51,896 nucleotides of DNA from Tabrizicola sp. (lineage in GTDB: Bacteria; Pseudomonadota; Alphaproteobacteria; Rhodobacterales; Rhodobacteraceae). Below, piece after piece: positions 761 to 19,688 of the stretch (its first letter is position 1; each line of letters starts with the position of its first letter). Under the pieces are notes generated by a model, which saw only the letters and a list, made by a program, of their open reading frames with translations, was not told where the DNA came from and ran no database searches. Position numbers and translations under genes: made by a program. The stretch spans positions 1 to 51,896 of the forward strand of contig JALOTD010000006.1 of NCBI GenBank assembly GCA_025458105.1, in the 5' to 3' direction.

Positions 761-1552
761 TTAGCCCGCCTTCAGAAGCGGCAGCATCAGCGCGAAGAGC
801 TCCGCCTGGGACGAAATTCCGCAGCGCGCATAAAGCTGCTTGCGGAACACCTTCACCGTCTGCGGGCTGACCCCCAGCCGCAACCCGATCGACACCGTCG
901 AATGCCCGCGCAGGATCAAGAGCGCCACTTCCGCCTGCCGGGGTGACAACGCGATCCCGTGCCGCTTGGCCGCCGACAGCGCCAGCACCCCGGCCGTGTC
1001 CTCTGCCGGGCCCACGCTTTCCGCGATCCCGCGCCAATGACCGCGCGCCAAGGCCGCAATCACTGGGCCAAGCCTTTGACAAACTTCCATTTCCGTACCA
1101 CCGAAGGCCCGCCCCGAGGTCGCATCTCGCCCCAGGCACAGGTTCAGGCAGACCCCCGGCGCGGGCCAGACGACGAAGGTGATCTCGTCCTGCAGTGTGG
1201 TCTGGTCGTAGTATTCGATGAAATACCGGCTGCGGTGAAAGGCGTCCGGCGCGATGTCGCGCAAACGGTACACCCCTTCCGGCGCGCGTTGGCGGTGCAG
1301 GTCGTAGTATGGATCCAGTCGGAAGGCACCCGCCACGTAAGTGCTTTCCAGCTCGGAGAAAACCTGCGGACTGATGAAGCGGCGGTACAAAACCAGCGGC
1401 GGCCCCGCATCGCGGTAGGCCAGGATGATCAGATTGTCCGGTCGCGCCACCGCCAGGAACAAGTCCCACAGCCCCGCCTCGAACCCGTCGCCGCCGATCC
1501 GAGCAATCACCTCGGCGAGACGGGTTTCAGACAGGTTTGGCAGGGCCTCCAT
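761..1552 (-). CDS. LuxR-type (GerE HTH) transcriptional regulator
   Basis: The 263-residue protein has a C-terminal LuxR/GerE helix-turn-helix at about residues 202-258, starting LSPRQAEVALLILRG and including the TVKVF recognition-helix region. The N-terminal roughly 170 residues resemble no receiver or autoinducer domain that I can recognise, so I do not call it a quorum-sensing receptor. It is transcribed away from the ABC importer and catabolic genes. The 80-nt gap holds a perfect 16-bp palindrome and a further half-site. It is therefore probably the local regulator of the 1633-10895 genes, and possibly of itself, with an importer substrate as ligand. That role is inferred from divergence and the palindrome only. 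Confidence 0.85.
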   Translation of the reverse strand: MEALPNLSETRLAEVIARIGGDGFEAGLWDLFLAVARPDNLIILAYRDAGPPLVLYRRFISPQVFSELESTYVAGAFRLDPYYDLHRQRAPEGVYRLRDIAPDAFHRSRYFIEYYDQTTLQDEITFVVWPAPGVCLNLCLGRDATSGRAFGGTEMEVCQRLGPVIAALARGHWRGIAESVGPAEDTAGVLALSAAKRHGIALSPRQAEVALLILRGHSTVSIGLRLGVSPQTVKVFRKQLYARCGISSQAELFALMLPLLKAG

Positions 1553-1563
1553 GATACCTCATT

Positions 1564-1622
1564 GGGGGTATATACCCCCCACTGGACGTCGCATTAGCCT
1601 TATCCCAGCCATCAGGGGGTAT
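1564..1622. promoter_or_regulatory. Perfect palindrome plus half-site, candidate LuxR-type operator
   Basis: Positions 1564-1579 read GGGGGTATATACCCCC, an exact 16-bp inverted repeat. It lies 11 bp upstream of the regulator's start codon and about 50 bp upstream of the importer genes. A second copy of one arm, GGGGGTAT, is at 1615-1622 next to the first possible ATG of the ATPase gene. The symmetry and its place in a divergent intergenic region suggest an operator. The G-run at 1614-1619 may also serve as the ribosome-binding site of the ATPase gene, so the half-site could be coincidental. Confidence 0.6.
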
Positions 1623-1632
1623 GAATCGCCAA

Positions 1633-2688
1633 ATGTCCACCGCCGTCGACATCCGCGACGCCGTCAAGACCTACGGACAGGTGACCGCGCTGCAGGGCGT
1701 CTCGCTAAACATCGCCGACAATGAGTTCTTTACTCTCCTCGGCCCCTCGGGCTGCGGCAAGACCACGCTTCTGCGGCTGATCGCGGGGTTCGAAGAGATC
1801 ACGGCGGGCCAGATTCTGCTGTTCGGTCAGGACATTGCGCGGTTGGAGCCGAACCATCGGCCAGTGAACACGGTCTTTCAGAACTACGCCCTTTTTCCGC
1901 ATATGTCGGTCCTGGACAACGTGGCCTTCGGGCTGAAGATGAAGGGGGTGGACCTGCCCAGCCGTCAAAAGCGCGCCGGGCAAGTGCTTGAGATGGTTCA
2001 CCTATCCCAGTTTGCCGACCGCCTGCCCGCCCAGCTTTCCGGCGGCCAGCAGCAGCGCGTGGCCCTTGCCCGCGCGCTGGCACCCGAGCCCAAGGTGCTG
2101 CTTCTGGACGAGCCACTCTCGGCCCTCGACCTCAAGCTGCGGCAAGCCATGCGGGTCGAACTTAAGCAGTTGCAGGAAGACACTGGCATCACCTTCATCT
2201 TTGTCACCCACGACCAGGAAGAAGCGCTGACCATGTCCGACCGCATCGCCGTCATGTCGAATGGCACGGTGCAGCAGATCGGCACCGCGCGGGACATCTA
2301 CGAGGCGCCCGTCAATCGGTTTGTGGCTGATTTCATCGGTGAAACCAATCTGTTGCAGGTCGATGTTGAAGCAAATTCTGAAGACATTGCCATTGTTATC
2401 CTGCCAGGCGGGCACCGCATCACCTGCCCCTCGGCCAGTTCCAAGACCGGGAAGCATCACCTGTCGATCCGTCCCGAGCGAGTGACGATTGCCGACACGG
2501 GCAACCTCTCGGCGACCGTCGACCGGGTCGTCTACCTGGGCACCGACCTGCAGGTCATTGCACATCTCGACGACAGTCAAACGGTTACCATTCGCCTGCA
2601 GAACGCCGCCCGCACGGCTCCCCCTGCGCTGGGCCAACGCATCAGCCTGCAGCTGGAGGAAGGCGCGGCCCGCCTTCTGGCCGACTGA
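1633..2688 (+). CDS. Polyamine-type ABC importer 1, ATPase (PotA family)
   Basis: This cytoplasmic ATPase powers an importer of the spermidine/putrescine (PotABCD) class. Visible are Walker A GPSGCGKT (about residues 37-44), a Q-loop region [11 protein letters not shown], the signature LSGGQQQR (about 135-142), Walker B VLLLDEP (about 155) and H-loop [10 protein letters not shown]-terminal TOBE-type domain follows. Length is about 351 residues, normal for PotA. I prefer ATG 1633 over the in-frame ATG 1621, because the only purine-rich stretch (AGGGGG, 1614-1619) is 1 nt from the latter. It is the first gene of the plus-strand run, and its stop overlaps the next start (TGATG). The substrate is unproven and may be another cationic amine. 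Confidence 0.93.
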
Positions 2689-3605
2689 TGGCCGCCCCCG
2701 GCCCCCAGCCCCAGACGGGTGACGCGGCCTATCGGGGGATCGTGCGGCCGCTTCTTCTGCCCACCTGGGCGGTGATCGGCATCCTGATGGTGCTGCCGGT
2801 CGCCCTTATGGCGGTTTATTCCTTTCTGACCAAAGAGTTCCGGGGCGGCGTCGAATGGGATTTCACCCTTGCCGCCTATGACCAGTTTTTCGTCACCCGG
2901 GGCCTTTTTGGTGACGAGCCGCCGCAAATCGAGTGGACCTACATCTCGATCTTCTGGCGCTCCATCTGGCAGGCGGCGCTGGCCACCCTTCTCTGTCTGC
3001 TGATCGGCTTTCCGACCGCCTGGTTCATTGCGACACGGCCCGCAAAGACCCGTGGAATCTGGCTTTTCCTGATTACCATCCCCTACTGGGTCAACCTTTT
3101 GATCCGCACGGTGTCCCTTCGCTTTCTCCTCCGCGATCAAGGGCCGCTGAACGAGGGGCTGATCGACCTTGGTCTGATCTCAGAGCCCTTACAGATCATC
3201 AACACCAACCTCGCGGTGCAACTGGGCCTGTTCTATAGCTACCTGCCCTTCATGGTGCTGCCGATCTACGCGGCGGTCGAGCGTTACAACTTCGCCCTCT
3301 CCGAGGCCGCCGCCGACCTTTACGCCAGCCGCTGGGCCACCTTGCGCGAGATTGTGTTGCCCGTGGTCAAGCCCGGCATCATCGCGGGCTGCATCCTGGT
3401 CTTTGTGCCGTCCCTCGGCGCTTTCCTTGCGCCCGATCTGCTGGGTGGCGCCAAGACCTTCATGATCGGGAGCCTGATCGACGAACAGTTCAAGGGCTCA
3501 CAAGGCAACTGGCCGTTCGGCGCGGCGGTGGCGATGATCCTGATGAGCTTGGTCCTGATTGTCCTTTTGCTTTACGCCCGGGCACAGACGCGGGGGGCGC
3601 GATGA
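2688..3605 (+). CDS. Polyamine-type ABC importer 1, permease (PotB family)
   Basis: This 305-residue inner-membrane protein has about six hydrophobic segments. The first is at roughly residues 25-45. A cytoplasmic EAA coupling loop lies near 205-233 ([20 protein letters not shown]...PG). It is the PotB/PotH-type half of the importer channel. It overlaps the ATPase stop by one base and the next permease by 4 nt (ATGA), indicating translational coupling. The loop between the first two membrane segments is moderately long, as is usual for PotB-type subunits. Confidence 0.92.
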
Positions 3606-4402
3606 AGGGTGTGCGCCACTACCCCGGCTTTCTGCCGCTGACGATCCTGTGCCTGATTGTCCTTTATGCACCCTTGGCTGTGGTGGCGGTCTACAGCTTC
3701 AATGCCTCCACCTCGATCACCCAATGGGGTGGCTTTTCTTTGCGCTGGTATGCCGATGTCTTTACCGGCGCCGAGGCGGAACGCTTTGGCCAGGCGGCCT
3801 GGAACTCGCTGACCATCGCGCTGATCGCGGCCACGACCGCCACGGCCATCGCAACGGCGGCTGCGCTTGCGATGATCCGCGGCGGGCCGTTTCGCGGCCG
3901 GCAGGCGAGTTTCGCGCTGATCAACCTGCCACTCATGGTGCCGGAAATCGTGATCGCGGTGGCCACGCTGATCTTTTTCTCTACCATCGGGCTGACGACC
4001 GGCTATCTGACCATCCTTCTCGCCCACATCACCTTCTGCATCCCCTTCGCCTATCTGCCCATCGCGGCGCGGCTTGAGGGGATCGAGGGCACCTATGAAC
4101 AGGCCGCCCGCGACCTCTATGCCACCCGCGCGCAGGCCTTCCGGCTGATCCTTCTGCCTCTCATGATGCCCGGCGTGATCTCGGGCTGGCTTTTGGCCTT
4201 CATCATCAGCCTCGACGATTTCATCATCACCAACTTCGTCAAGGGCGCGGGGATGGAGACCTTGCCGACCGCGATCTTCGGGTCGGTGAAACAGGGCATC
4301 AAGCCCAACATCATGGCCATTTCCACGCTGATGCTTCTGGTCAGCGTCCTGTTCGTGACTGCCGCCTACCTGATCAACCGCAAGGGGCAGAAGACCCCGT
4401 GA
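3602..4402 (+). CDS. Polyamine-type ABC importer 1, permease (PotC family)
   Basis: The second permease has 266 residues and six membrane segments, starting with one at about residues 10-32. Its EAA-type loop is near residues 166-195 ([25 protein letters not shown]). The [12 protein letters not shown] stretch typical of PotC/PotI subunits follows. It begins inside the previous gene through an ATGA overlap. It ends 16 nt before the binding-protein gene, which has its own strong AGGAGA ribosome-binding site. Confidence 0.92.
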
Positions 4403-4418
4403 CAACAAGGAGAACCCC

Positions 4419-5435
4419 ATGAAAAGACTGCTTCTTTCTACCGCTTTCCTCGCCTCGCCCGCCTTTGCCGAGGGCGAGCTGAAGGTCTACCACTGGTTCG
4501 AGTATATCCCCGAGGACCTGGTCACCAAATTCGAGACCGAGACCGGCATCGACGTGACCATCGACACCTATGACAGCAACGAGGCGATGCTGGCCGCGCT
4601 GAAGGCGGGCAAGCTTGGCCAGTATGACGTGGCCGTGCCGGGCGACTACATGGTCAAGATCATGGCCGGGGAAGGCCTGCTGGATACCTTCGCGCCGACC
4701 GACCTGCCGAACTTCGGCAACATCGCGCCGCAGTGGCTGGACGTGCCCTTCGACCCGGGCCGCCAGTCGTCGATCCCCTATCAGTGGGGCTCTACCGCCT
4801 TTTCGGTGAACCGCGATGTCTTCACCGGCGACATCTCTACCCTCGGCATCATCTTCGACCCGCCGCCGGAACTGCAGGGCAAGATCAACGTCCTCGACAG
4901 CCAGGGAGAGGTGCTGGCGCTCGGCTCGATCTACCTTGGCATTCCGCAATGCACCCAGGACCGCGAGCAGCTGAAGGCGCTGAACGACATGCTCCTGAAC
5001 GCCAAACAGCACTGGGCCTCGTTCGGCTCCGACATCTCGAAGGATGTGCTCGTCTCGGGCGATGCGGCGGCGGGGATGATCTACAACGGCTTTTCCGCCA
5101 AGGCGCGGGCCGAGGGCGCGAATGTCGAATTCGCCTTCCCGAAAGAGGGCTACGTTGTCTGGATGGACAACGTCGTCCTCCTGAAGGACGCACCCAACCG
5201 CGACAACGCGCTGAAATTCATGAACTTCCTGCTGGATCCAGCGAACGCCGCCGCTGTCACCAACTACGCCGCCTACAGCGCGGGCGTGACGGGGGTTGAA
5301 CCCTTCCTTGCCCCCGAAATCTCGGGCAGCCCGGAGAACAACCCGCCGGCCGACCAGAAAGGCTTCTTCATCGAAGCCTGCGACGAGGAAACCCAGAAGC
5401 TTTACGACGCGATCTGGACCAACCTGAAGAAGTAG
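4419..5435 (+). CDS. Polyamine-type ABC importer 1, periplasmic binding protein (PotD/PotF family)
   Basis: The protein has 338 residues and a Sec signal peptide of about 17 residues (MKRLLLSTAFLASPAFA). The mature N-terminus has the family's VYHWFEYIPEDL strand. The region PKEGYVVWMDN aligns with the PKEGG..WMD stretch of PotD, whose Trp and Asp contact the amine. Retention of both residues supports a cationic amine ligand but does not identify it. AGGAGAACCCC precedes the start. A perfect 10-bp hairpin lies just after the stop, before the nitrilase gene, and may raise the amount of this protein relative to its neighbours. Confidence 0.92.
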   Translation: MKRLLLSTAFLASPAFAEGELKVYHWFEYIPEDLVTKFETETGIDVTIDTYDSNEAMLAALKAGKLGQYDVAVPGDYMVKIMAGEGLLDTFAPTDLPNFGNIAPQWLDVPFDPGRQSSIPYQWGSTAFSVNRDVFTGDISTLGIIFDPPPELQGKINVLDSQGEVLALGSIYLGIPQCTQDREQLKALNDMLLNAKQHWASFGSDISKDVLVSGDAAAGMIYNGFSAKARAEGANVEFAFPKEGYVVWMDNVVLLKDAPNRDNALKFMNFLLDPANAAAVTNYAAYSAGVTGVEPFLAPEISGSPENNPPADQKGFFIEACDEETQKLYDAIWTNLKK

Positions 5436-5443
5436 ACCCATGC

Positions 5444-5475
5444 GCCGCCCGTCACCCTGACCGGCGACGGGCGGC
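5444..5475 (+). promoter_or_regulatory. Intra-operon hairpin after binding-protein gene 1
   Basis: GCCGCCCGTC (5444-5453) pairs perfectly with GACGGGCGGC (5466-5475) across a 12-nt loop. It starts 8 nt after the binding-protein stop and ends 15 nt before the nitrilase start. No T-tract follows, so it is more likely an mRNA-stabilising or attenuating element than a full terminator. A similar perfect hairpin occupies the same relative place in importer 3 (43542-43568). Confidence 0.6.
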
Positions 5476-5490
5476 CCTGAAGGACCCGCC

Positions 5491-6246
5491 ATGCGCGTAG
5501 CACTTCTGCAAACTCATTCCCCAATGGGCGATCTTGACGCCGCCTGTGCCGCAGCAGAGGCCGCGTTGGCCGCCGCCGCCGCAATGGGCGCCGAAGCCCT
5601 TGTCCTGTCCGAAGTCTTCCTGCCGGGCTACAACCAACCGGACATCCCCGCCCGCGCGCTCACCCTCGACAGCCCGCAGCTACTGCACCTTGCTGCCGCA
5701 GCTCGCCGCCACCAGACGGCCCTGGTCGTGGGCTACGCCGAGCGCGACAGCGACACCCTCTACAACTCTGCCGCCTGCTTTGGCCCCGATGGAGCCTGTC
5801 TGGCCAACTACCGCAAGGTTCAGCTTTATGGCCCCCGGGAACGCGCCCTTTACCAACCCGGCAACACTTATGCGACCTTTCCACTGGGCGCTGAAACGGC
5901 AGCGATTCTCATTTGTTACGACGTGGAGTTTGCACCGCATGTGAAGTCTCTGGCCGACCGCGGAGTGACGCTGATCCTTGCGCCCACCGCCAACATGGCG
6001 CCCTTCACCCATGTCGTCCACCACACCGTCCCGGCCATGGCCGCAAACCACGGGGTGACGATCGTCTACGCCAACTATTGCGGCACGGAAGGTGATCTTA
6101 CTTACGTTGGCGGCTCGCTCATCGCCGGACCGCATGGCGAGATCCTGGCCCAGGCAGGCGAGCATCCCGCGCTTCTGGTCGCCGATATTCCCGCGCGCAA
6201 CCCCGCGCGGTTGTCCACCCAATCCGCCGACCTGAAGGCCCTCTGA
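5491..6246 (+). CDS. Nitrilase-superfamily C-N hydrolase (amidase-like)
   Basis: This 251-residue cytoplasmic enzyme has the Glu-Lys-Cys triad of the carbon-nitrogen hydrolase superfamily. The residues are Glu41 in SEVFLPGYN, Lys109 in YRKVQLYG and Cys142 in LICYDVEF. The length and motifs fit the omega-amidase/aliphatic amidase/N-carbamoylputrescine amidase side of the family rather than true nitrilases. It sits between the importer genes and the flavoprotein, and its stop overlaps the next start (TGATG). A role in hydrolysing an amide of the imported compound, or of a breakdown product, is inferred from position only. Confidence 0.9.
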   Translation: MRVALLQTHSPMGDLDAACAAAEAALAAAAAMGAEALVLSEVFLPGYNQPDIPARALTLDSPQLLHLAAAARRHQTALVVGYAERDSDTLYNSAACFGPDGACLANYRKVQLYGPRERALYQPGNTYATFPLGAETAAILICYDVEFAPHVKSLADRGVTLILAPTANMAPFTHVVHHTVPAMAANHGVTIVYANYCGTEGDLTYVGGSLIAGPHGEILAQAGEHPALLVADIPARNPARLSTQSADLKAL

Positions 6247-8324
6247 TGCGCGACCCCCGCCACGATATTCTGTTCACGCCACTGCAAATCGGCCCGAAGA
6301 CCGCCAAAAACCGCTTCTACCAGGTGCCCCACTGCAACGGTGGCGGCTATCGTGACCCCTCCGCGGTGGTCGAGATGCGCCGCACCAAGGCCGAGGGCGG
6401 CTGGGGCGTGATCTTCACCGAACAGACGGAAATCCACCCGACCTCCGAGATCACCCCCTTCATCGAACAGCACCTCTGGGACGACCGCGACTTGCCCGCG
6501 CTGGCCCGCATGGCGGAGGCGATGAAATCCCACGGTGCGCTCGCCGGCATCCAACTCGCCTACTCCGGCATCAACGGCCCGAACCTCTACTCCCGCGAGG
6601 TGCCGCTTGCGGTCACGGGCGGCCCGATCCTGACCTTCACCTCCGACCCCGTCCAGGCCCGCACCATGGACAAGGAGGACATCCGCGACCTCCGCCGCTG
6701 GTTCAAGAACGCCTTTCGCCGCAGCCAGCAGGCAGGCTTCGACCTCATCTGCCTTTACGGCGCCCACGGCTTCGGCATCCTGCAGCACTTCCTCTCCCGG
6801 GCCACGAACCACCGCACCGACGAGTACGGCGGCACCCTCACAAACCGCGCGAGGTTCCTGCGCGAGATCGTTGAAGATGCACGGGAAACCACGAAGGGCG
6901 AACTGGCCGTCACGCTCCGGATGAGCCTCCATGAAGGCGGACCTCAAGGCTTTTCCAATGCCGAACTCCGCGATTTCATCGCGATGCACGCCGACCTTCC
7001 CGACCTCTGGGACCTCGCCCAGGGCACTTGGGAGGCCTGCTCCGGCACCTCTCGCTTCAAGGACGAAGGCGCACAAGAGGCGCTGGTCAAGGGCATCAAG
7101 GACCTGACCCCGAAACCCGTCGTCGGCGTCGGCCGCTTCACCAGCCCCGACGCGATGGTGCGCCAGATCAAGGCGGGCATCCTCGACCTCATCGGTGCCG
7201 CAAGGCCAAGCATCGCCGACCCCTTCCTGCCGCTGAAAGTGGAACAGGGCCGCTATGAGGACATCCGCGAATGCATCGGCTGCAACATCTGCATCTCGGG
7301 CGACATGACCCAAGGCATCAGCCGCTGCACCCAGAACACCGCCTTCATGGAGGAATGGCGCAAGGGCTGGCACCCCGAGCGCCCGCGCCCCAAGGGCGCA
7401 TCCGAAAGCGTCCTGATCGTCGGCGCGGGCCCCACGGGCCTTGAGGCCGCGCTCCAGGCCGCCAGACGTGGCTACAAGGTCACCCTGGCCGAGGCCACCA
7501 CCACCCTCGGCGGCCGGGTGACAAAGGAACGCGCCCTTCCCGGTCTCTCCGCCTGGGGCCGCGTCGCCGACTACCGCACCGGCCAACTCGCTCCCCTTCC
7601 CAATGTCGAGATCTACCGCGACAGCTCCCTCACGCCCGACGACGTCCTCGCGATGCAAGCCGACCACGTCGCCATCGCCACAGGGGCCAACTGGCGCCGC
7701 GACGCCGTGGCGCGCTTCCACCTGCACCCGATCCCGACTGATCCGGCGATGCCGCTCTACACCCCAGACGACCTGATGTCGGGCCGTTGCCCCGAGGATC
7801 AGACCGTCGCGCTTTATGACGACGACCATTTCTACATGGGCTCCGTCCTCGCCGAGCTCATGATCGCGAAGGGCAACCGCGTCCACTTCATCACCCCCGC
7901 CGTGAAAGTCGCCGAGTGGACCGACAACACGCTGGAGCAGGGCACGATCATGCGCCGCCTTCTCGATCTCGGCGTGGAGATCCACCTCAGCAAAGCCCCG
8001 GAAGCCATTGGCGCAGCAGACGTAACGCTGGGATGTACTTGGACCGGCCGCCAGACCCTGCTCCCCTGCGACGCGGTCCTCCACGTCACCTCCCGCACTC
8101 CGAACGACAGCCTCTATCACCAGATCAAAGCCCTCGACTGGCAGGCCGCCGGGATCAAGTCGCTGAAACTCATCGGCGACGCCGCCGCCCCCGGCCCCAT
8201 TGCCTGGGCGACCTACGCCGGGCGCAACTGGGCCGAATCCCTCGACCAGCCCGACCAGGGCGACGCCCTCACCTTCCGCCGCGAGATCGCCGCGCTCGAC
8301 CCCGGCCCCAGCCTCCTGCCATGA
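6246..8324 (+). CDS. Trimethylamine-dehydrogenase-like iron-sulfur flavoprotein
   Basis: This 692-residue protein has an N-terminal old-yellow-enzyme TIM barrel and a C-terminal FAD/NAD-like half (IVGAGPTGLEAA near residue 391). It closely follows the TMADH/DMADH pattern. NRFYQVPHC puts Cys30 at the 6-S-cysteinyl-FMN position. Cys343, Cys346, Cys349 and Cys361 match the 4Fe-4S ligands, and YGAH (171-174) matches the catalytic Tyr-His pair. The pocket differs: Gln60, Glu74 and Ala105 stand where TMADH has Tyr, Ser and Trp, and no clear counterpart of Asp267 is seen. The family oxidatively N-demethylates tertiary or secondary amines (TMADH, DMADH, DgcA, StcD). Here the substrate is likely bulkier than trimethylamine. 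Confidence 0.9.
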   Translation: MRDPRHDILFTPLQIGPKTAKNRFYQVPHCNGGGYRDPSAVVEMRRTKAEGGWGVIFTEQTEIHPTSEITPFIEQHLWDDRDLPALARMAEAMKSHGALAGIQLAYSGINGPNLYSREVPLAVTGGPILTFTSDPVQARTMDKEDIRDLRRWFKNAFRRSQQAGFDLICLYGAHGFGILQHFLSRATNHRTDEYGGTLTNRARFLREIVEDARETTKGELAVTLRMSLHEGGPQGFSNAELRDFIAMHADLPDLWDLAQGTWEACSGTSRFKDEGAQEALVKGIKDLTPKPVVGVGRFTSPDAMVRQIKAGILDLIGAARPSIADPFLPLKVEQGRYEDIRECIGCNICISGDMTQGISRCTQNTAFMEEWRKGWHPERPRPKGASESVLIVGAGPTGLEAALQAARRGYKVTLAEATTTLGGRVTKERALPGLSAWGRVADYRTGQLAPLPNVEIYRDSSLTPDDVLAMQADHVAIATGANWRRDAVARFHLHPIPTDPAMPLYTPDDLMSGRCPEDQTVALYDDDHFYMGSVLAELMIAKGNRVHFITPAVKVAEWTDNTLEQGTIMRRLLDLGVEIHLSKAPEAIGAADVTLGCTWTGRQTLLPCDAVLHVTSRTPNDSLYHQIKALDWQAAGIKSLKLIGDAAAPGPIAWATYAGRNWAESLDQPDQGDALTFRREIAALDPGPSLLP

Positions 8325-8330
8325 CCGAGC

Positions 8331-8400
8331 CCTTTCACCTTGCACCAAGTATCCCCGCCGGAGGCACCCGAGCGTTTCTGCGTCCTTCACGCAGAAACGC
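8331..8400. repeat. Post-stop repeat module with 12-bp hairpin (copy 1)
   Basis: Seven bases after the flavoprotein stop, 8331-8356 reads a CCTTTCACCTTG...CCAAGTATCCC motif. It is nearly repeated at 40247-40271, also a few bases after a stop. It is followed by a perfect hairpin: GCGTTTCTGCGT (8372-8383) pairs with ACGCAGAAACGC (8389-8400) around a 5-nt loop. No clear T-tract follows. It could act as a Rho-independent-like or stabilising element between the flavoprotein and the Rid gene. Only two copies are seen in this window. Confidence 0.55.
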
Positions 8401-8466
8401 GCGACAAAGAGTCTTCGCGCGGAACGCGCTCAATTCAATAACCGCCCTCACCCACGGACCCCAACG

Positions 8467-8889
8467 ATGACCCACTTCCGCCACCGCAAGTTCAACACCC
8501 GCGAGACCTATCCGGAACAGAAGCTCGACAATGACCTCTGCCAGGCCGTCGTTGCGCGCGGTCGGATCGTTTTTCTTCGTGGCCAGTGCCCGCAGGACCT
8601 CGACACCGCCAAGGACATCGGCAGCCATGACCCGGTCGAGCAGACCCACAAGGTCATGCAGAACATCCGGCAGCTGCTGGAAGAGGTCGGCGGCAAGATG
8701 GAGCATCTCTGCAAGGTTGTCGTCTATCTGACCGACGTCCGCCACCGCGAGGCGGTCTACCGGACGATGGGCGAATACATCAAGGGCGTGCACCCGGTCT
8801 CGACCGGCGTCGTCGTCACCGCGCTCGCCCGGCCCTCGTGGCTGGTGGAAATCGACGGGACCGCCGTCATCCCGGACGACGAGACATGA
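8467..8889 (+). CDS. Rid-family (YjgF/YER057c/UK114) protein lacking the catalytic Arg
   Basis: This 140-residue single-domain Rid protein would form a trimer. Canonical RidA deaminates reactive enamines/imines and needs Arg105 (E. coli numbering, in FPARSCVEV). Here the matching stretch is HPVSTGVVV, with Ser112 in place of the Arg, so it is probably not a standard RidA imine deaminase. The open frame extends upstream, but that part is the 3' end of the flavoprotein gene read in another frame. ATG 8467 fits the family N-terminus. Its stop overlaps the next start (ATGA). The context suggests handling of an unstable intermediate of amine oxidation, which is inference. Confidence 0.85.
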   Translation: MTHFRHRKFNTRETYPEQKLDNDLCQAVVARGRIVFLRGQCPQDLDTAKDIGSHDPVEQTHKVMQNIRQLLEEVGGKMEHLCKVVVYLTDVRHREAVYRTMGEYIKGVHPVSTGVVVTALARPSWLVEIDGTAVIPDDET

Positions 8890-9557: not shown

Positions 9558-9583
9558 GTTTCCAGAGATGAAGAAACCGTTAA

Positions 9584-9595
9584 TGTCCATGGACA
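9584..9595. promoter_or_regulatory. 12-bp palindrome in AT-rich gap, possible operator/promoter
   Basis: TGTCCATGGACA is an exact inverted repeat in the 108-nt gap between the DUF1028 and flavin-monooxygenase genes. The sequence that follows (9600-9650) is clearly more AT-rich than its surroundings. The last gene of the run may therefore have its own promoter and a separate regulator. It has no similarity to the GGGGGTATATACCCCC palindrome upstream. Confidence 0.35.
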
Positions 9596-9665
9596 ACATC
9601 ATGATTTCGCTTGATAATTTGAAAATGTTCACCGTGGATACTTCGCGGCTTGAAAGGCGCAAGCC

Positions 9666-10895: not shown

Positions 10896-10899
10896 CGGG

Positions 10900-12504: not shown

Positions 12505-13345
12505 GGCGCAACTCCTCCAGTGCGGGCCAGTCGTTGGCAGGAAGGACGCGCGCATTCTGCTGCACATCACCGGTCCAGACGAAAAGGCACAGGAAGGGCA
12601 CCGCACCGACCTTGGTCAGATGCGGCTTGTGGCGCGGGTTCCAGACCGGCTGATGCGCCGGTTTCACCTGCAGCGGTCGGTCGGGACCAAAGCGCCAGCC
12701 ATGCGGACCGGTCAGGGGGGCATAAAGCTCGGGCGCGGCGTGGTGGTGGTCGCGGTAAAGGACGTTGGGGGCAATGAGGAAGACCCCAAGGTCAACATCC
12801 CTTGCCGCGAAGGGCGCGGCCTCCCCCAGGATCGAGGCATAGGCATGGCCCGTCGCAAAGGCCTCGCCGATCCGATCGCGGGGGTAGGCGTCGTAGGTCA
12901 CCCAGGCCAGCGACCCTGCCGCCCCGGCCAGCGCCTCGACCAGCGCCGGGGCACCGGTCACGGCATGCAGCGCGGGGTGAAGCCACGCGTCGACGACCTT
13001 GTTGCGTGCCCCGGGCGTAGGGCGCGGCGGCCCCGGATCGGCCGGAAGCGCCGCACGCACCTCTGCCGCTCCGGGGTGGCGCAGGGCCAGAACATAGTCG
13101 CGCGCGGCGTGATAAAGCCTGGTCAGGGCGTCCGTCGATTCGGGAAAGCTTGGCACTGGCAAATGCCTGTCCTGCAAGAGATACGCCGGATTCTGGCCAT
13201 CATGTGCCGAGGCCACGCGGTAGACCTCCAGCACCTCGGCGCTGATCCGGCCCTGCCGCCACAGCTCCATCGCGGCAGCGTAGCGCACCCGTCCGGAGCC
13301 CGGCTGGCCCAGCGGCGCATGAAGAAGCGCGGCGGGGTCAGTCAT
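12497..13345 (-). CDS. DMSP-lyase-like cupin (cupin-DLL superfamily)
   Basis: The 282-residue protein has a helical N-terminal half and a C-terminal cupin of the DddQ/DddL type. Tyr197, His202, Glu206 and Tyr208 lie in NVLYRDHHHAAPELYAPLTG, and His242 in RHKPHLTKVG. The spacings match DddQ Tyr120, His125, Glu129, Tyr131 and His163, the metal and catalytic residues of DMSP lyase. It is longer than typical DddQ (about 200 residues). It sits between an importer permease and the amidohydrolase, overlapping both by 8 nt, with Rieske oxygenases upstream. The superfamily contains members that are not DMSP lyases, so only family membership is claimed. Confidence 0.82.
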   Translation of the reverse strand: MTDPAALLHAPLGQPGSGRVRYAAAMELWRQGRISAEVLEVYRVASAHDGQNPAYLLQDRHLPVPSFPESTDALTRLYHAARDYVLALRHPGAAEVRAALPADPGPPRPTPGARNKVVDAWLHPALHAVTGAPALVEALAGAAGSLAWVTYDAYPRDRIGEAFATGHAYASILGEAAPFAARDVDLGVFLIAPNVLYRDHHHAAPELYAPLTGPHGWRFGPDRPLQVKPAHQPVWNPRHKPHLTKVGAVPFLCLFVWTGDVQQNARVLPANDWPALEELRLG

Positions 13346-14177
13346 TGGCCCGGAACGCCAGGCGTTCCTCTCGCAGGCGGCGGGACTCGGCGCGGGTCAG
13401 GATGATCCCTGCCGCAAGGACGCCAAGCCCCACGGTGACCACCATCAGCGTGGCCAGGGCGTTTATGTCGGGCGTCACCCCCAGCTTGACCTTGGACCAG
13501 ACCAGAAGCGGCAAGGTCGTATTGCCCGGTCCGGTCACGAAGGACGAAATCACCACATCGTCCAGGCTGATCGTGAAGGCGAGAAGCCAGCCCGACAGGA
13601 TCGCGGGAAAGATCACCGGCAGCGTAACGTCAAACATCACCTGCCACGGGCGTGAACCTAGGTCCATCGCCGCCTCTTCGATGGCGCGGTCGGCCTGCAG
13701 CATGCGCGCCTGGACAATGGTCGTCACGAAGACCATGCAAAAGGTGATATGCGCCAGCGTGATCGTGGTGAACCCGCGGCTGCCCGGCCAGCCTACCCAG
13801 TCGGCCATCAGGATGAAGAAGACGAGCATCGAGATGCCGGTAATGACCTCGGGCATGACCAGCGGCGCGATGACCAGACCGGAAAACAGCGTCCGCCCCC
13901 GAAACTTCGTGAACCGCGCCAGGGTGATCCCGGCCATGGTGCCGAGAATGGTGGCGATGCTGGCGGAGATGAGTGCAATCTGCAGCGACAGGATCAGTGC
14001 ATCCCAGACTTGCTGGTTCTGGAACAGCGAGACGTACCATTTGGTCGAGAACCCGCCCCAGACCGTCGCCAACCGCGAGCCGTTGAAGCTGTAGACGATC
14101 ATCGACAGGATCGGGATGTAAAGGAAGGCAAAGCCGAAGCAGAGCATCGTGATGAGAAAGGTCGAGCGGCGGGTCAT
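13338..14177 (-). CDS. Polyamine-type ABC importer 2, permease (PotC family)
   Basis: The 279-residue protein starts at ATG 14177 (MTRRSTFLITMLC), four bases inside the end of the upstream permease (ATGA overlap). The open frame extends further upstream, but only as a shadow of that gene. It has six membrane segments and the EAA-type loop AAMDLGSRPWQVMFDVTLPVIFP. The ISLDDVVISSFVTGPGNTTLP region is shared by PotC/PotI subunits. Its 3' end overlaps the cupin gene by 8 nt. Confidence 0.92.
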   Translation of the reverse strand: MTRRSTFLITMLCFGFAFLYIPILSMIVYSFNGSRLATVWGGFSTKWYVSLFQNQQVWDALILSLQIALISASIATILGTMAGITLARFTKFRGRTLFSGLVIAPLVMPEVITGISMLVFFILMADWVGWPGSRGFTTITLAHITFCMVFVTTIVQARMLQADRAIEEAAMDLGSRPWQVMFDVTLPVIFPAILSGWLLAFTISLDDVVISSFVTGPGNTTLPLLVWSKVKLGVTPDINALATLMVVTVGLGVLAAGIILTRAESRRLREERLAFRAND

Positions 14178-15088
14178 TTCGACCCCTCGGCCCTGGCCTG
14201 GTAGTGGCTGTACAGCATCGTCGGGATCACCATCAGCACCAGAAGCGCCACCGCCACGGCCGAGGCCATCGGCCAATCCCGCGCCTGGCCGAATTCGTCC
14301 TGGATGATCTTGCCGATCATCGGCTGCGACGCGTTGCCGACCAGCGTGGGGATCACCAGCTCTCCCGCCGCCGGGATGAAGACCAGCATGCCGCCCGCCA
14401 CAATGCCGGGGATCGACTGCGGCAGGGTCACGTCCCAGAACACCTGATGCGGTCGGCTGCCTAGGTCCATTGCCGCCTCGTCCAGCGTGGGGTCGAGCCG
14501 TTCCAGGCTGGCGTAAAGCGGCAGGATCATGAAGGGCAGATAGGTGTAGACCATCACCAGGACGACGGCGAAATTCGTGTTCATCAATGGGACAGACTTT
14601 ACCGCCCAGTCCAGGGGGACAAGGAAGTTCCAGCTGTCGGTCAGCAACCCGTTGAACCAGGAATTCTTCCCCATCAGCCCCATCCAGGCATAGACCCGCA
14701 GAAGGAACGAGGTCCAGAACGGCAGAATCACCAGCATCAGCAGGATCGTCCGCCATCCCCTTGAGACGCGGGTCAGCGCAAGGGCCATAGGATAGCCGAT
14801 CAGAAGGCACAGCATCGCCGTCAGCGCGGCATTCAGAACCGAGGTCATGAAGGCGCGCAGGTACAGACTGTCAGTGAAGACCCGACTGAAGGGCCCCAGG
14901 TTCACCCAAGGATGCTCGCCCCCGATGGAGAAGGGCGGGGCGGTGGGAGTATTGGTCGCGACACTCATCACGACGACGATCAGGAAGGGCAACAGGAAGA
15001 ACAGGATCAGCCAAAGATAGGGCACACCGATCAGCAGCGCCCGCCAGCCTTTCAGGTCGAACCAGCGGCGGAGGGGGTGCTTGTCCAT
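14174..15088 (-). CDS. Polyamine-type ABC importer 2, permease (PotB family)
   Basis: The 304-residue protein starts at ATG 15088 (MDKHPLRRWFDLKG), which overlaps the ATPase stop as ATGA. It has a first membrane segment at about residues 15-40, five further segments and the EAA loop DEAAMDLGSRPHQVFWDVTLPQSIPG. The longer frame upstream is antisense to no gene but lacks a better start, and the overlap start is consistent with the rest of this tightly packed operon. Confidence 0.92.
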   Translation of the reverse strand: MDKHPLRRWFDLKGWRALLIGVPYLWLILFFLLPFLIVVVMSVATNTPTAPPFSIGGEHPWVNLGPFSRVFTDSLYLRAFMTSVLNAALTAMLCLLIGYPMALALTRVSRGWRTILLMLVILPFWTSFLLRVYAWMGLMGKNSWFNGLLTDSWNFLVPLDWAVKSVPLMNTNFAVVLVMVYTYLPFMILPLYASLERLDPTLDEAAMDLGSRPHQVFWDVTLPQSIPGIVAGGMLVFIPAAGELVIPTLVGNASQPMIGKIIQDEFGQARDWPMASAVAVALLVLMVIPTMLYSHYQARAEGSK

Positions 15089-16182
15089 CAGTCCACCAGC
15101 ACGATGGCGGCGCTTGGGTCGAAAGCGACCCAGACGGTGTCGTCCCAATCAGCCACCCGCGCGCCTTCGTCGCCGCGCCGGGCGTTTACGGCATGGGCCT
15201 GCACCAAGGCGCCGGGAAGCGCGATGCGGTAAAGGCTGTCCTTGCCGAAATAGGCCAGATCCTTGACCTGCCCTGCGACCGCATTTCCACCTTCCGGCCT
15301 ATCCTTCGTGATGCGCAATTTTTCCGGGCGGATCGCAAGGGTCACCCCCTGCCCCGGCACGGCGGCGGGGACATCGCGGGCCGTAACCTCACCGCCCAGC
15401 GCGGGCACGTCCAGGCGCAGGCCATCGGCGCTGCGCGACAGGACGGTGGCGTCAAAGCTGTTCACCGACCCGATGAAGCCCGCCACAAAGCGCGAGGCGG
15501 GGAATTCGTAGATTTCGGTCGGCGTGCCCACCTGCATCACTTGCCCCCGATCCATCACCGCAATCCGGTCAGACAGCGTCATCGCCTCTTCCTGATCATG
15601 GGTCACGACGATGAAGGTGACGCCCGTGCGTTCCTGGATCGACATCAGCTCGAACTGGGTGTGTTCGCGCAGCTTCTTGTCCAAGGCGGCCAGGGGTTCG
15701 TCGAGGAGGAGCAGTTTCGGCTGCCGCGCCAGCGCCCGGGCGAGTGCCACCCGCTGGCGCTGCCCGCCGGAAATCTGGTGCGGCTTGCGCCCGGCGAAGG
15801 CGGTCAGCTGCACCAGGTCCAACATTTCGGCCACGCGGTCGGCACGTTGTGTCCGGGTCAGCGCCCTTTCGTGCTTCAGCCCATAGGCGATATTCTTCTC
15901 GACGGTCATGTGCGGGAACAGCGCGTAGGACTGGAACATCATATGGACAGGGCGTTCCCAGGGTGGGACGCCCGCCATGTCGCGACCGTCCAGGAAGATG
16001 CGGCCGGCGGTCGGTTCCTCGAACCCCGCCAGCATGCGCAAAAGCGTGGTCTTGCCGCAGCCCGATCCGCCGAGAAGCCCGAAGATTTCACCCTTGGCAA
16101 TGTCGAGCGTCACGTCCTGTACGGCTTGAAACGTCCCGAAGTGTTTCGAGACTCTGTCGATCCGCAGGAAAGGTTCGCTCAC
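15088..16182 (-). CDS. Polyamine-type ABC importer 2, ATPase (PotA family)
   Basis: This 364-residue ATPase has Walker A GGSGCGKTT, Q-loop MMFQSYALFPHM, signature ISGGQRQR, Walker B LLLLDEP, H-loop VTHDQEEA and a C-terminal TOBE-type domain. The gene begins 1 nt after the binding-protein stop. Together with the two permeases and the binding protein it makes a complete second importer within 11 kb of the first, in the opposite orientation. Confidence 0.93.
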   Translation of the reverse strand: MSEPFLRIDRVSKHFGTFQAVQDVTLDIAKGEIFGLLGGSGCGKTTLLRMLAGFEEPTAGRIFLDGRDMAGVPPWERPVHMMFQSYALFPHMTVEKNIAYGLKHERALTRTQRADRVAEMLDLVQLTAFAGRKPHQISGGQRQRVALARALARQPKLLLLDEPLAALDKKLREHTQFELMSIQERTGVTFIVVTHDQEEAMTLSDRIAVMDRGQVMQVGTPTEIYEFPASRFVAGFIGSVNSFDATVLSRSADGLRLDVPALGGEVTARDVPAAVPGQGVTLAIRPEKLRITKDRPEGGNAVAGQVKDLAYFGKDSLYRIALPGALVQAHAVNARRGDEGARVADWDDTVWVAFDPSAAIVLVD

Positions 16183-16183
16183 C

Positions 16184-17290
16184 TTAGCCGCCCGTCTTGA
16201 TCTCGGTCCAGGCGCGGTTCATGTCGGATTCCTGCTCGGGCGTCTGGGGGATGGGCGTGTACATCCGCGCCAGGGCGGCCTCGTCGGGGTAGACGGCAGG
16301 ATCGGCTGCAATCGCGGGGTCGATGAAGGGCATGGCAGCGGCATTGGCGTTGGCATAGCCGGTATAGTTGGTGCAGGCAGCGATGACCTCGGGCCGCAGG
16401 AGGTAGTCGATGAAGCGGTGGGCGTTCTCGACATTGCCAGCATCGACCGGAATGGCCCAGACGTCGAACCAGGCAGGAACGCCGGTCTTTGGGATGAAGT
16501 AACCGAGGTTGATCTCGATCCCCGCCTCAGCCGCGCGGGCCTTGGCGACGCCATAGTCGCCCGACCAGTTGTTGACGGCGCAGGCCTCGCCATTCGGCAG
16601 GGTGGTCAGGTAGTTCGCGTTGTCGAAGGTGGCGATGTAGTCGCGCACCGGGCGCACGGCCTCGACCATCTTGGCCCATTCGGCGGGTCCTGCGGTGTTG
16701 GGGTCGATGCCAAGGTAGCTGAGGATCATGAAGCCGATGTCGTTGGGGCTGTCGAGGAGAGAGATCCCGCAATCGGCCAGCAGCGCCGCGTTCTCAGGCT
16801 TGAGGATCGTGTCGAGCGACTCCAGATCTGCGTTGGGCAGGCGTTCCCTGACCATGTCGAGGTTGTAGGTCATGCCGACCGAGCCCCACATGTAAGGCAC
16901 GCCATAGGCGTTGCCGGGATCGTAGCCTTCAACGATCTTCAGGATTTCGGTGTCGAGGTTCCCCCAGCCGGTCAGCTTTGCGCGGTCTAGTTTCTGCAAG
17001 ACACCCGCCTGGACCGAACGCGGGATCCCCTGCCCCGAATGCAGGACGACATCATATCCGGTGGATCCCGCCAGCAGCTTGGCCTGCATCTCCTCGGCAC
17101 TGGCGTAAAGGTCGTAGACCACCTCGATCCCGGTTTCGGCGGTGAAGTCCGCCAGAGTCGTCTCGCCGATATAGTCCGACCAGTTGTAGACATTGACCAC
17201 CCCCGCGCCCTGCGCCCAGGACGGGCGCACCCAGGGTGCAGCAAGCGTGGCGGACCCTGCAATCAGAGCCTGGCGACGGTTCAGTCTCAT
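16184..17290 (-). CDS. Polyamine-type ABC importer 2, periplasmic binding protein with Tat-like signal
   Basis: The 368-residue PotD/PotF-type binding protein has an N-terminus MRLNRRQALIAGSATLAAPWVRPSWAQ, which carries twin arginines, a hydrophobic core and an A-x-A-like cleavage region. A Tat rather than Sec route is therefore likely. The mature part starts VVNVYNWSDYIGE as in PotD/PotF. The PKTGVPAWFDVW stretch keeps an aromatic-Asp pair at the PotD ligand site. GGGGAGACCACC precedes the ATG. It follows the second Rieske gene by 41 nt and precedes the ATPase by 1 nt, so there is no room for the hairpin seen after the binding-protein genes of importers 1 and 3. Confidence 0.92.
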   Translation of the reverse strand: MRLNRRQALIAGSATLAAPWVRPSWAQGAGVVNVYNWSDYIGETTLADFTAETGIEVVYDLYASAEEMQAKLLAGSTGYDVVLHSGQGIPRSVQAGVLQKLDRAKLTGWGNLDTEILKIVEGYDPGNAYGVPYMWGSVGMTYNLDMVRERLPNADLESLDTILKPENAALLADCGISLLDSPNDIGFMILSYLGIDPNTAGPAEWAKMVEAVRPVRDYIATFDNANYLTTLPNGEACAVNNWSGDYGVAKARAAEAGIEINLGYFIPKTGVPAWFDVWAIPVDAGNVENAHRFIDYLLRPEVIAACTNYTGYANANAAAMPFIDPAIAADPAVYPDEAALARMYTPIPQTPEQESDMNRAWTEIKTGG

Positions 17291-17331
17291 GGTGGTCTCC
17301 CCGACAGGTCTTGGTTGATTGTCCAGTCAGC

Positions 17332-18549
17332 TTATCCCTGCACCGGCAGGTCGCAAATCATTTCCGCATTGCGCGCCGCGATCCGGTCTTCCGGTGGGGG
17401 CTGATCCAGTGACATCACCGGCATCAGTCGCCGCAAACCATCGTGATGACAGCGCAAGCCGTATTCCAGATCGGACAGGTGGAACCCTTCGAAGGCGTCC
17501 GACCGCATCGACTCGTTCGACCATATCGACAGTTGGCGGTCCTCGGCCGAGGTGTCGCGGTCGATCCGGTAGGCCAGGTAGCGCGCCAGCCGTGCGGCAC
17601 GTGACTCGTTCGGCCAGCGATAGAGCCGCCCGGTCAGCCGCGTCTCTCCCACCGAGAGCGGCAGGTCTTGGTAGAAAGAGGCTCCTTCTGGCGTGACTGC
17701 GAAGACCTGGTTCGGGAACAGGCCATAATAGGTCCATGCGCGTTGCAGGTGCGGCGGCAGGTCGGGCCGTGGCGGCGAGGCCTTGACGTAGTTGCGCACC
17801 GACCACAGTCGCCCGGGCACGTCGCCAAACCAGCCAATCGACATCGACAGGCCGTTTGCCAGATTGTGGTCGCGGTAGGTGCGTCCGTAAAGGTCCTGCA
17901 AACCGGGATGGGCTAAGGCGACGTGATAGCCCTCGTTGTCCACGTCGCGGACCGATTTCCAGTTCACCGGCAGGTCGCTGAACCAGTCCGGGACCTTGAC
18001 CGGCAACACCTCTTCCATCCGATAGGCCGCAAAATCCGCATCGAACGGCGCAAAGAGGGTCGCGACATCGGGCTGCGGCCCGGGGCGGAACCGCAGGAAG
18101 ATGAAGCCGTGAAAAATCTGCATCTCGATCGGTTTTAGGCCAAAATCCTCACGCCGCATCTCGCCAAAGCTCGTCGGGCGGGCCGCGCCGCGCAAGGAGC
18201 CATCCAGATTGTAGACCCAGCCATGGAAGGGGCAGACGATCGCCCCCTTGCAACTGCCTTTATCGCCGTCCAAGACCCGCGCACCCCGGTGGCGGCACAG
18301 GTTGTGAAAAGCCCGCACGACACTGTCCTGACCGCGCATCACGACCGCACGCTCACCCAACAAATCAAAGCTTAGCCAGTCGCCGGGGTGCGGCAGGTCC
18401 GCGACATGACCCACGACTTGCCAGTGGGTCAGGAACAGCCGCTCTCGCTCCAGCGCGAAGAGTGCGGGCGAATGGTACGTCCAAGCCGGCAGCCCGCGCC
18501 GGTCCCAGTCGTTCGGAACCGGCAATGTTGCAAAGGGAAGTTCTGTCAT
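17332..18549 (-). CDS. Rieske non-heme iron oxygenase, alpha subunit (second of pair)
   Basis: The 405-residue protein has a Rieske 2Fe-2S site at Cys85/His87 (NLCRHRG) and Cys106/His109 (CPFHGW). The catalytic-iron region is DVDNEGYHVALAHPGL, with His209 and His214. Start ATG 18549 overlaps the upstream Rieske gene as ATGA. It belongs to the ring-hydroxylating-oxygenase-type alpha subunits that also include N-demethylating monooxygenases. It differs clearly from its partner upstream (DNEGYH versus ENYSECLH). No reductase or ferredoxin gene lies in the operon, so electrons must come from a component encoded elsewhere. Confidence 0.9.
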   Translation of the reverse strand: MTELPFATLPVPNDWDRRGLPAWTYHSPALFALERERLFLTHWQVVGHVADLPHPGDWLSFDLLGERAVVMRGQDSVVRAFHNLCRHRGARVLDGDKGSCKGAIVCPFHGWVYNLDGSLRGAARPTSFGEMRREDFGLKPIEMQIFHGFIFLRFRPGPQPDVATLFAPFDADFAAYRMEEVLPVKVPDWFSDLPVNWKSVRDVDNEGYHVALAHPGLQDLYGRTYRDHNLANGLSMSIGWFGDVPGRLWSVRNYVKASPPRPDLPPHLQRAWTYYGLFPNQVFAVTPEGASFYQDLPLSVGETRLTGRLYRWPNESRAARLARYLAYRIDRDTSAEDRQLSIWSNESMRSDAFEGFHLSDLEYGLRCHHDGLRRLMPVMSLDQPPPEDRIAARNAEMICDLPVQG

Positions 18550-19688
18550 GGGGTATGCTCCATTTCGGCGAGGACCCACTGGTGAAAGCGGTGGATCTCG
18601 TATTCCTCCGGCATCAGCCGTGCCGTGGTAAAGCCGGGCGATGCCATTCCCCGCTGGTTCATTTCTGCCGCCGCGCCGTCTTCCATAAGGACCTGAAGGG
18701 CAAAGGCTGCCACTTCGGCGGCATCAAAGCCGGGTTGCGCCAAGGTTGCCGGCGCGAAATGCCATTCGGCCACCAGCCGGGTGCGGGTGGGGGACACAGG
18801 CTCCAGCCGGACCGAGCGCACATAATCGATATGCGCCACAACATAGGCCGAGGGCCAGAGCGTGACGAAGTGGTACCCCGCCCGCCGGTCCGCAGGCGAA
18901 AGGTCGGGAAACACGGGGCCACAAGCCGCGCCTGTCGGCGTCCAGCTTTCCGCACCGAGCCGCAGGTTGGGGCCCTCGGGGTGGTCTTGCGTCCAGCTTG
19001 CGGCCTCGGACCAGCCCATGATCCCCTGGCGATAGACCGGGACCAGATCGCAAAGTGCCGGATGTATGCCCGGACAATGGAGGCATTCCGAATAATTCTC
19101 CCAAAACGTTTTCCAATTGCAGGCCACTTCGGTCTGAAAGCGGTGCCCAGTGACCAAGTCTGCCATCGGCCAGCGGTCCAGCGTCAACAGGCCGACATCA
19201 GACCGGATCGGGCCAGGCCCGCCCGCAAGCGACAGGAACAGAAAACCGTTCCAGACCCTAAGGGCAACGGGCCGCAGCCCGTGCGCCGCACGGTCGAAAT
19301 CGTCGGTCGGAACGGCATGCCCGGTTGCGACCAGGCGACCGTCGGTCGCGTCGTAGGCAAAGGCATGATAGGGACAGCGGATGAGAGCACCGACAGCCTG
19401 GTCATCGCTGTGGCAGAGTTCGGACCCGCGATGGGGGCAGCTGTTATGCCAAGCGGCAAGCGTGCCCTGCCCGTCGCGCAGCACAATCACGCTGGCCCCG
19501 GCAAGGCTGACACGGCGCATCCGCCCGGCGGGGAAGGCGTCGGCGCGCCCGACCATGATCCATTGGCGGGCAAACAGCGTGGCACGTTCACGCTCAAACC
19601 AATCCGGATCGAAATAGGCGGCTTTCGGCAGGCCCGCAGGACAATGGTCCAGCCGCGGCGAAACGGTTGGGGTGGCCGGATGGGTCAT
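18546..19688 (-). CDS. Rieske non-heme iron oxygenase, alpha subunit (GbcA/Stc2/CntA-like)
   Basis: The 380-residue protein has Rieske ligands Cys84/His86 (SCPHRGSEL) and Cys105/His108 (CPYHAFAYD). The catalytic motif ENYSECLHCPGIHP carries His204 and His209, with Glu201 nearby. The ENxxExxHCxxxHP pattern is that of the quaternary-amine oxygenases: glycine betaine (GbcA), stachydrine (Stc2) and carnitine (CntA). ATG 19688 is chosen because family similarity begins just after it. A longer open frame reaches 19817 but adds low-complexity sequence. It is the first gene of the minus-strand operon, and a promoter should lie between 19689 and about 20000. Confidence 0.9.
   Translation of the reverse strand: MTHPATPTVSPRLDHCPAGLPKAAYFDPDWFERERATLFARQWIMVGRADAFPAGRMRRVSLAGASVIVLRDGQGTLAAWHNSCPHRGSELCHSDDQAVGALIRCPYHAFAYDATDGRLVATGHAVPTDDFDRAAHGLRPVALRVWNGFLFLSLAGGPGPIRSDVGLLTLDRWPMADLVTGHRFQTEVACNWKTFWENYSECLHCPGIHPALCDLVPVYRQGIMGWSEAASWTQDHPEGPNLRLGAESWTPTGAACGPVFPDLSPADRRAGYHFVTLWPSAYVVAHIDYVRSVRLEPVSPTRTRLVAEWHFAPATLAQPGFDAAEVAAFALQVLMEDGAAAEMNQRGMASPGFTTARLMPEEYEIHRFHQWVLAEMEHTP

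Follow-up and report, generated by a model that had tools for sequence, protein, structure and literature searches.

Two adjacent amine-catabolic gene clusters in Tabrizicola: a probable variant histamine operon beside a probably independent Rieske oxygenase cluster

Two runs of genes, each with its own polyamine-type ATP-binding cassette (ABC) importer, meet tail to tail in the genome of Tabrizicola sp. (Rhodobacteraceae; assembly GCA_025458105.1), and the question raised by this locus is whether they encode one catabolic pathway or two. The window, that is, the whole stretch of 51,896 nucleotides analyzed here (JALOTD010000006.1), is a single contig; the genome comprises 4.1 Mb in 165 contigs and is about 90% complete. 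Cluster 1 (761-10895) ends with the stop codon of an FMO-like monooxygenase gene at 10895, and cluster 2 (10900-19688) with that of an amidohydrolase gene that begins at 10900 on the opposite strand, which leaves a gap of 4 nt (Table 1). The initial annotation had correctly placed all of the named genes, the tail-to-tail junction and both importers, and had proposed that the region encodes stepwise breakdown of a single N-methylated or quaternary amine. Amine catabolism stands as the general theme. The evidence presented below, however, favors two separate amine-catabolic clusters, namely, a variant histamine operon (cluster 1) and an independent Rieske-based amine cluster (cluster 2), a reading to which we assign a probability of roughly 0.74. 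The open reading frames are regarded as real genes and not as chance frames because orthologous runs occur in relatives.

The flavoprotein of cluster 1 had been likened to trimethylamine dehydrogenase (TMADH) and DgcA. Among solved chains, it scores highest with the histamine dehydrogenase (HDH) of Rhizobium sp. (6DE6; 1052 bits, E=0, flavoprotein residues 1-686), followed by the HDH of Nocardioides simplex (3K30; 825 bits), 6L6J (661 bits) and TMADH (479 bits), and over its whole length TMADH and other OYE-like flavoproteins are more distant from it than HDH is. Cys30, the residue of the 6-S-cysteinyl flavin mononucleotide (FMN), and the [4Fe-4S] cysteines C343, C346, C349 and C361 are invariant in seven aligned sequences and align with those of 6DE6. 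The accessible part of PMC10180351 lists the active-site and tunnel residues of Rhizobium HDH, and the comparison covered 13 pocket, tunnel and catalytic positions in addition to Cys30 (the listed Leu567 lies outside the 13). All 13 mapped residues match: Gln60, Ile69, Phe72, Glu74, Asn110, Phe131, Tyr171, His174, Phe176, Arg225, Trp263, Asp354 and Met355, the last three corresponding to Trp262, Asp353 and Met354 in the window protein. The same residues are kept in the same-genus rows (the partial row L001 being the window itself), in 11 plasmid-encoded orthologues from other genera (64-66%) and in six further relatives. A relative from Ideonella (58%) departs at two of the 13, residues 176 and 354, and in paralogues at 45-54% several to many of them are changed.

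Unlike the Rhizobium and Nocardioides genes, the window gene is located in an operon with a Pot importer and lower-pathway genes that resemble those of the hin system of Pseudomonas putida U and Brevibacterium. In P. putida U, according to the available portions of PMC6467879 and PMC8231116, the histamine route includes the flavin adenine dinucleotide (FAD)-monooxygenase HinF (EC 1.14.13.5), the enamine deaminase HinL, the amidases HinH and HinG, the aspartase HinI and the aldehyde dehydrogenase HinD, with aspartate as the end product. Judging by families and gene order, HinF-, HinL- and HinH-type genes are found together in cluster 1, where the FAD monooxygenase is accompanied by a Rid protein and, in the HinH position, by a DUF1028 protein whose only solved relative is a hypothetical protein (2imh, 54 bits). 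As in hin, M20 and aspartase genes accompany this set in other genera. In contrast to hin, an HDH-like enzyme takes the place of the HinC aminotransferase or the copper amine oxidase (no aminotransferase is encoded among the genes of 761-10895), a Pot ABC importer replaces the HinA permease, a LuxR-type regulator replaces the LysR regulator HinK, and a nitrilase-family amidase is present without M20 or aldehyde dehydrogenase genes. A relative of the LuxR regulator is found in 20 of the 22 same-genus loci read (window included). The binding protein of cluster 1 has its best match in PotD (183 bits with the solved structure), and relatives of the potABCD genes are found at 60-76% in Leisingera clusters and at lower levels in most other histamine-type clusters.

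Orthologues of HDH are encoded on plasmids of Leisingera, Paracoccus, Pseudohalocynthiibacter, Haematobacter, Parasedimentitalea, Pseudosulfitobacter, Rhizobium and Shinella, in loci that carry most of the following genes: FMO-like, RidA, DUF1028, aldehyde dehydrogenase, M20 deacylase (annotated as argE), LysR and Pot importer, as well as, at some of them, aspartate ammonia-lyase. Exceptions are the Haematobacter locus, without M20, the Shinella locus, with the FMO gene some 40 kb off, and a locus in a record labelled Roseateles, with no RidA, DUF1028 or M20. The gene order is FMO-RidA-DUF1028-M20-LysR in Burkholderia and FMO-RidA-DUF1028-M20-aspartase in Arthrobacter, with a primary-amine oxidase gene upstream and an aldehyde dehydrogenase gene nearby in the latter; together with the HDH loci, these gene orders suggest that different first enzymes feed one lower pathway.

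The association was quantified in a sample of 244 genomes from the order, each with a completeness of 90% or more, in which only the best few candidates per genome were scored, with cut-offs of E <= 1e-245 for HDH, 1e-120 for FMO at the HinF level and 1e-100 for Rieske oxygenase 1 of cluster 2. HDH is present in 33 of these genomes, HinF-level FMO in 67 and Rieske 1 in 16. All 33 genomes with HDH also encode the FMO, compared to 34 of the 211 others (Fisher p=2e-22, uncorrected for phylogeny), and in 28 of the 33 the two genes lie within 10 kb of each other on one contig. The combination of an HDH-like flavoprotein, hin-type company and this co-occurrence is the reason why cluster 1 is best described as a variant histamine operon. 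Two other assignments were considered for cluster 1 and dropped. Nit1C, to which the MSMEG_0569 family is linked, was considered for the pair of FMO and nitrilase genes; the FMO-like protein scores 347 against a curated cut-off of 498, and the neighbours indicate hin. Homarine (N-methylpicolinate), an initial guess for the substrate, became unnecessary with the HDH match. The accessible parts of PMC4433059, which do not mention DUF1028, histamine or imidazole, and of PMC12478193, which deal with glycine betaine, did not help to assign a function.

The following route can be proposed for cluster 1. The Pot-type transporter would import, most likely, histamine or a very close imidazolyl-ethylamine, which the HDH-like flavoprotein would deaminate to imidazole-4-acetaldehyde. 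An aldehyde dehydrogenase encoded elsewhere would convert the latter to imidazoleacetate, and the FMO-like protein, in the role of HinF, would oxygenate the ring. Opening and deacylation of the product to aspartate would then fall to RidA as the HinL counterpart, DUF1028 in place of HinH and the nitrilase-family amidase.

The genes of cluster 2 have a different set of partners. Motif scans detect the Rieske motif and a Glu at the bridging position in both Rieske proteins of the window, and the same Glu, which we take to mark CntA-type enzymes, is present in all 80 named relatives of Rieske 1. Both proteins thus resemble the carnitine and glycine betaine monooxygenases, CntA and GbcA, in combining a Rieske and a catalytic domain with the bridging Glu; however, the similarity is low (carnitine monooxygenase is the closest solved relative of Rieske 1 with 118 bits, and the curated GbcA model gives 120 and 134 bits for the two proteins against a cut-off of 670), and there is no reductase gene among the cluster 2 genes of the window. 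For the binding protein, SpuE/PotF is the best match (320 bits). The PF16867 protein, like the dimethylsulfoniopropionate (DMSP) lyases of the DddQ/DddL type, is predicted to adopt a DddQ-like cupin fold (AlphaFold model from a 9-row alignment, mean predicted local distance difference test score 88.4), and its cupin residues H200, H202, E206, Y208 and H242 are invariant in 10 of 10 aligned sequences. It differs in that its best PDB matches, DddQ structures, are only 21-26% identical, in an extra N-terminal region and in the context, since no other DMSP gene was recognized in cluster 2. An 81-aa Shinella protein encoded beside a GcvT gene (L173, 24873-25118) resembles this N-terminal part (window 13172-13327; 44% over 52 residues), so that the extra region may exist as a protein on its own. 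Relatives of the YtcJ-type amidohydrolase (70-77%) are found at the end of cluster 2 elsewhere. An amidohydrolase common to both clusters was considered and rejected, the window YtcJ protein being only 28-32% identical to that of other histamine-type clusters.

Cluster 2 comes in two forms. In the long form (L073, L077, L084, L085, L172 and others), the Rieske pair is preceded by four extra genes. Two of these encode FAD oxidoreductases, one a class-III aminotransferase and one a GcvT-type protein, for which trimethylamine N-oxide demethylase and T-protein are the nearest models. The short form, which is that of the window, is also found in L090, L092, L094, L096 and L161. The extra genes are absent from the window, and the best GcvT match in its own genome, at the completeness given above, is 37%. 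With thresholds of 33% identity and half coverage, we detected, in the fetched flanks of the 80 named Rieske 1 loci, aminotransferases of one kind at 51 loci and of another kind at four, one type of FAD oxidoreductase (FADa) at 20, GcvT at 14, Rieske 2 at 10, the cupin at nine and the amidohydrolase at four. This gene company is compatible with an amine being N-demethylated and deaminated step by step. Cluster 2 would take up and oxidize another, probably N-methylated, amine, with the Rieske oxygenases starting the attack; in relatives, the FAD oxidoreductases, the GcvT-type folate protein and the aminotransferase would complete the breakdown. The demethylation suggested in the initial annotation may be reasonable for cluster 2 alone, given the Glu-bridged Rieske proteins and the company in relatives.

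Other Rieske proteins, 27-35% identical to Rieske 1 of the window, are repeatedly found in or beside FMO/RidA/DUF1028 modules (L079, 9471-11737; L188, 12681-13808; L140, 1288-2454; also L212, L215, L217 and L222), with Glu at the bridging position in four of the four checked. These module-embedded proteins might demethylate methylated imidazoles such as methylimidazoleacetate.

If an N-methylated or quaternary amine were broken down jointly by the two clusters, losing one methyl group to the Rieske oxygenases and then another to the flavoprotein, the two halves should be expected to travel together. Their adjacency in the window, the bridging Glu and the relationship of Rieske 1 to carnitine monooxygenase all agree with such a scheme. 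The flavoprotein, however, groups with an enzyme that deaminates a primary amine and has the matching pocket, its operon partners match hin, and the halves occur independently, an outcome that the initial annotation itself had named as evidence against its proposal. Among 32 same-genus genomes, several of them incomplete (cut-offs of at least 80% for HDH and 66% for Rieske 1), HDH is encoded by 29 and Rieske 1 by 16; 15 carry the two together, 14 have only HDH, one has only Rieske 1 and two have neither. In the 15 with both, the genes are adjacent only in the window; in G007, they are located about 666 kb apart on the same contig, and in 13 genomes on different contigs, a few of which are too short for adjacency to show. 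In the order sample, both are present in seven genomes, HDH only in 26 (out of 33) and Rieske 1 only in nine (out of 16), and in the seven, the window excepted, they reside on different contigs or more than 1.7 Mb apart. HinF-level FMO is missing in 25 of 50 Rieske 1 genomes hand-picked from the 80, and none of the fetched flanks of the 80 loci encodes an HDH relative above 54%. Conversely, Rieske 1 genomes of the order sample are enriched in FMO (11 of 16 vs 56 of 228 others, p=4e-4) and in HDH (7 of 16 vs 26 of 228, p=0.002), which is a mild argument for a link between the halves, and at two of the 80 loci (L110 and L140) the Rieske 1 cluster is located a few kb from a RidA/DUF1028/M20 module, with additional FMO and HutD genes in L110. 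These two loci share the same layout and may reflect one event. On balance, the link is weak, a joint pathway of both clusters is possible but unlikely, and the demethylation scheme in particular appears quite improbable.

The enrichment and the two loci just described weigh against the reading of two separate clusters, and several features of cluster 1 against its histamine assignment, among them the flavoprotein's incomplete catalytic triad (Tyr171-His174-Asp265 in the Rhizobium enzyme). Asp265 corresponds to Ala264 in the window protein, in contrast to Rhizobium HDH, and for this reason we call the protein only HDH-like. Most same-genus rows have Ala at this position, some have Asn, Gly or Ser, and one genome, G008, has Asp. 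All 11 plasmid orthologues keep the Asp; among the six further relatives, L210 and L212, both of which show a LuxR gene but no M20, have Gln and Ala, respectively, and the other four have Asp. Loss of the triad Asp is thus common in the operon form with LuxR and nitrilase genes, G008 being the exception, whereas orthologues accompanied by LysR or M20 retain it. In the subgroup lacking it, the substrate may have shifted or catalysis may differ. Agmatine, 1,3-diaminopropane, putrescine or a similar primary amine has to be weighed as the substrate of cluster 1. The replaced Asp and the Pot-type importer are compatible with this idea, and the accessible part of PMC10180351 gives rates of 10% for agmatine and 13% for 1,3-diaminopropane relative to histamine for the Rhizobium enzyme. 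We nevertheless consider another amine unlikely in view of the tight tie to HinF/HinL/HinH-type genes, whose published role is the conversion of imidazoleacetate to aspartate.

Further such points concern genes that are missing or matched indirectly. The equivalence to HinF, HinL and HinH is drawn from family, gene order and published names rather than from alignment to the Hin proteins. Five HDH genomes of the order sample (G001, G172, G207, G265 and G318) have no FMO within 10 kb of HDH. Cluster 1 lacks a HinD-type aldehyde dehydrogenase, the best own-genome matches to the Leisingera enzyme being at 40-45%, and no HinG-type M20 gene is found beside it or in any of the 22 same-genus loci read; the best M20 protein of the genome (55%) is of a kind also present in HDH-free congeners. 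The nitrilase-family gene shows the opposite distribution: it is present in 19 of the 22 same-genus loci and in none of 15 loci outside the genus, 12 of which have M20 (at a 13th, in Arthrobacter, the annotated M20 falls below the cut with 30% identity and 40% coverage). Three same-genus loci (L086, L195 and L196) carry HDH-rid-DUF1028-fmo with neither the nitrilase gene nor M20 alongside, and in L218 M20 occurs together with a 46% relative of the nitrilase-family protein; other relatives outside the genus are at 61% (L210) and 50% (L212). That this protein simply replaces HinG is a possibility against which these loci, three with neither gene and one with both, speak, and they make its assigned role a weak one. 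Its gene is found in 29 of the 32 same-genus genomes (the G015 copy is partial and on a different contig from HDH), and in G016 and G021, which have no HDH, nit-rid-DUF1028-fmo remain together, which places it with the lower pathway.

The juxtaposition of the two clusters could also be an assembly join and not a chromosomal arrangement. The number of contigs and the completeness of the assembly make this conceivable, and none of the relatives read shows such a junction; the junction itself is compact and tail to tail, and the only dispersed repeat that was spotted is about 2.4 kb distant, so that a join appears rather improbable to us. Even more doubtful is a single route on which cluster 2 would import and N-demethylate a methylated histamine, for example, an N-alpha-methylated or trimethyl form, and cluster 1 would deaminate the product and convert it to aspartate. 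If this were true, the replacement of the triad Asp and the lack of aminotransferase, FAD oxidoreductase and GcvT genes beside cluster 2 would reflect a division of labour.

Table 1. Genes and other features of clusters 1 and 2 in the window.
Feature	Position	Strand	Remarks
LuxR-family regulator (GerE helix-turn-helix)	761-1552	-	PF00196; divergent from cluster 1 operon
potABCD, polyamine-type ABC importer, cluster 1	1621-5435	+	proposed histamine importer
Carbon-nitrogen hydrolase (nitrilase superfamily)	5491-6246	+	PF00795; motif scan E41, K109, C142; proposed lower-pathway amide hydrolase
HDH-like flavoprotein (6-S-Cys-FMN, 4Fe-4S type)	6246-8324	+	Oxidored_FMN/Pyr_redox; solved-chain matches
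Dispersed structured repeat, between HDH and rid	8325-8455	no strand	not considered part of the pathway
RidA-family protein	8467-8889	+	PF01042; HinL enamine deaminase counterpart by family and position
DUF1028 protein	8886-9557	+	PF06267, 223 bits; positional counterpart of HinH amidase
FMO-like FAD monooxygenase	9666-10895	+	proposed imidazoleacetate monooxygenase, HinF counterpart
YtcJ-type amidohydrolase (Amidohydro_3), last cluster 2 gene	10900-12606	-	PF07969, 269 bits; start uncertain
DMSP-lyase-fold cupin (predicted), cluster 2	12497-13345	-	PF16867
potC, cluster 2	13338-14177	-	
potB, cluster 2	14174-15088	-	
potA, cluster 2	15088-16182	-	
potD/F, PotF-like binding protein, cluster 2	16184-17290	-	
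Rieske oxygenase 1	17332-18549	-	PF00355+PF00848; Glu at bridging position
Rieske oxygenase 2	18546-19688	-	Glu at bridging position

Several other features of the window deserve mention. A phoU gene (47-748) directly adjoins the LuxR gene, an arrangement shared by 8 of the other 21 same-genus loci read, so that the cluster 1 operon neighbours a phosphate gene. A third polyamine-type importer is encoded at 41288-45727; its ATPase is 44% and its permeases are 32 and 28% identical to their cluster 2 relatives. The repeat of about 125 nt downstream of the HDH gene is listed at 27 places in the genome, the window copy included; in eight aligned copies, 20 pairs are predicted, eight of which show changes on both sides, mostly within a single long hairpin, and no Rfam match was obtained at gathering scores. 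A tRNA-Leu called by ARAGORN inside the FMO gene (10154-10250) was discarded, having no Rfam support at gathering scores.

Histamine dehydrogenase is described in the accessible part of PMC10180351 as an assay enzyme for food quality. Among the matches listed in our literature search, with most of the subscription literature outside its reach, there was no publication that places a histamine dehydrogenase gene in a pathway or joins it with the lower pathway. The constant company of HDH with HinF-, HinL- and HinH-type genes would give this enzyme a physiological role and would add a large group of aquatic bacteria to those that convert histamine to aspartate. A single lower pathway would moreover turn out to be fed by unrelated first enzymes, and DUF1028 would gain a testable function, that of a HinH-type amidase.

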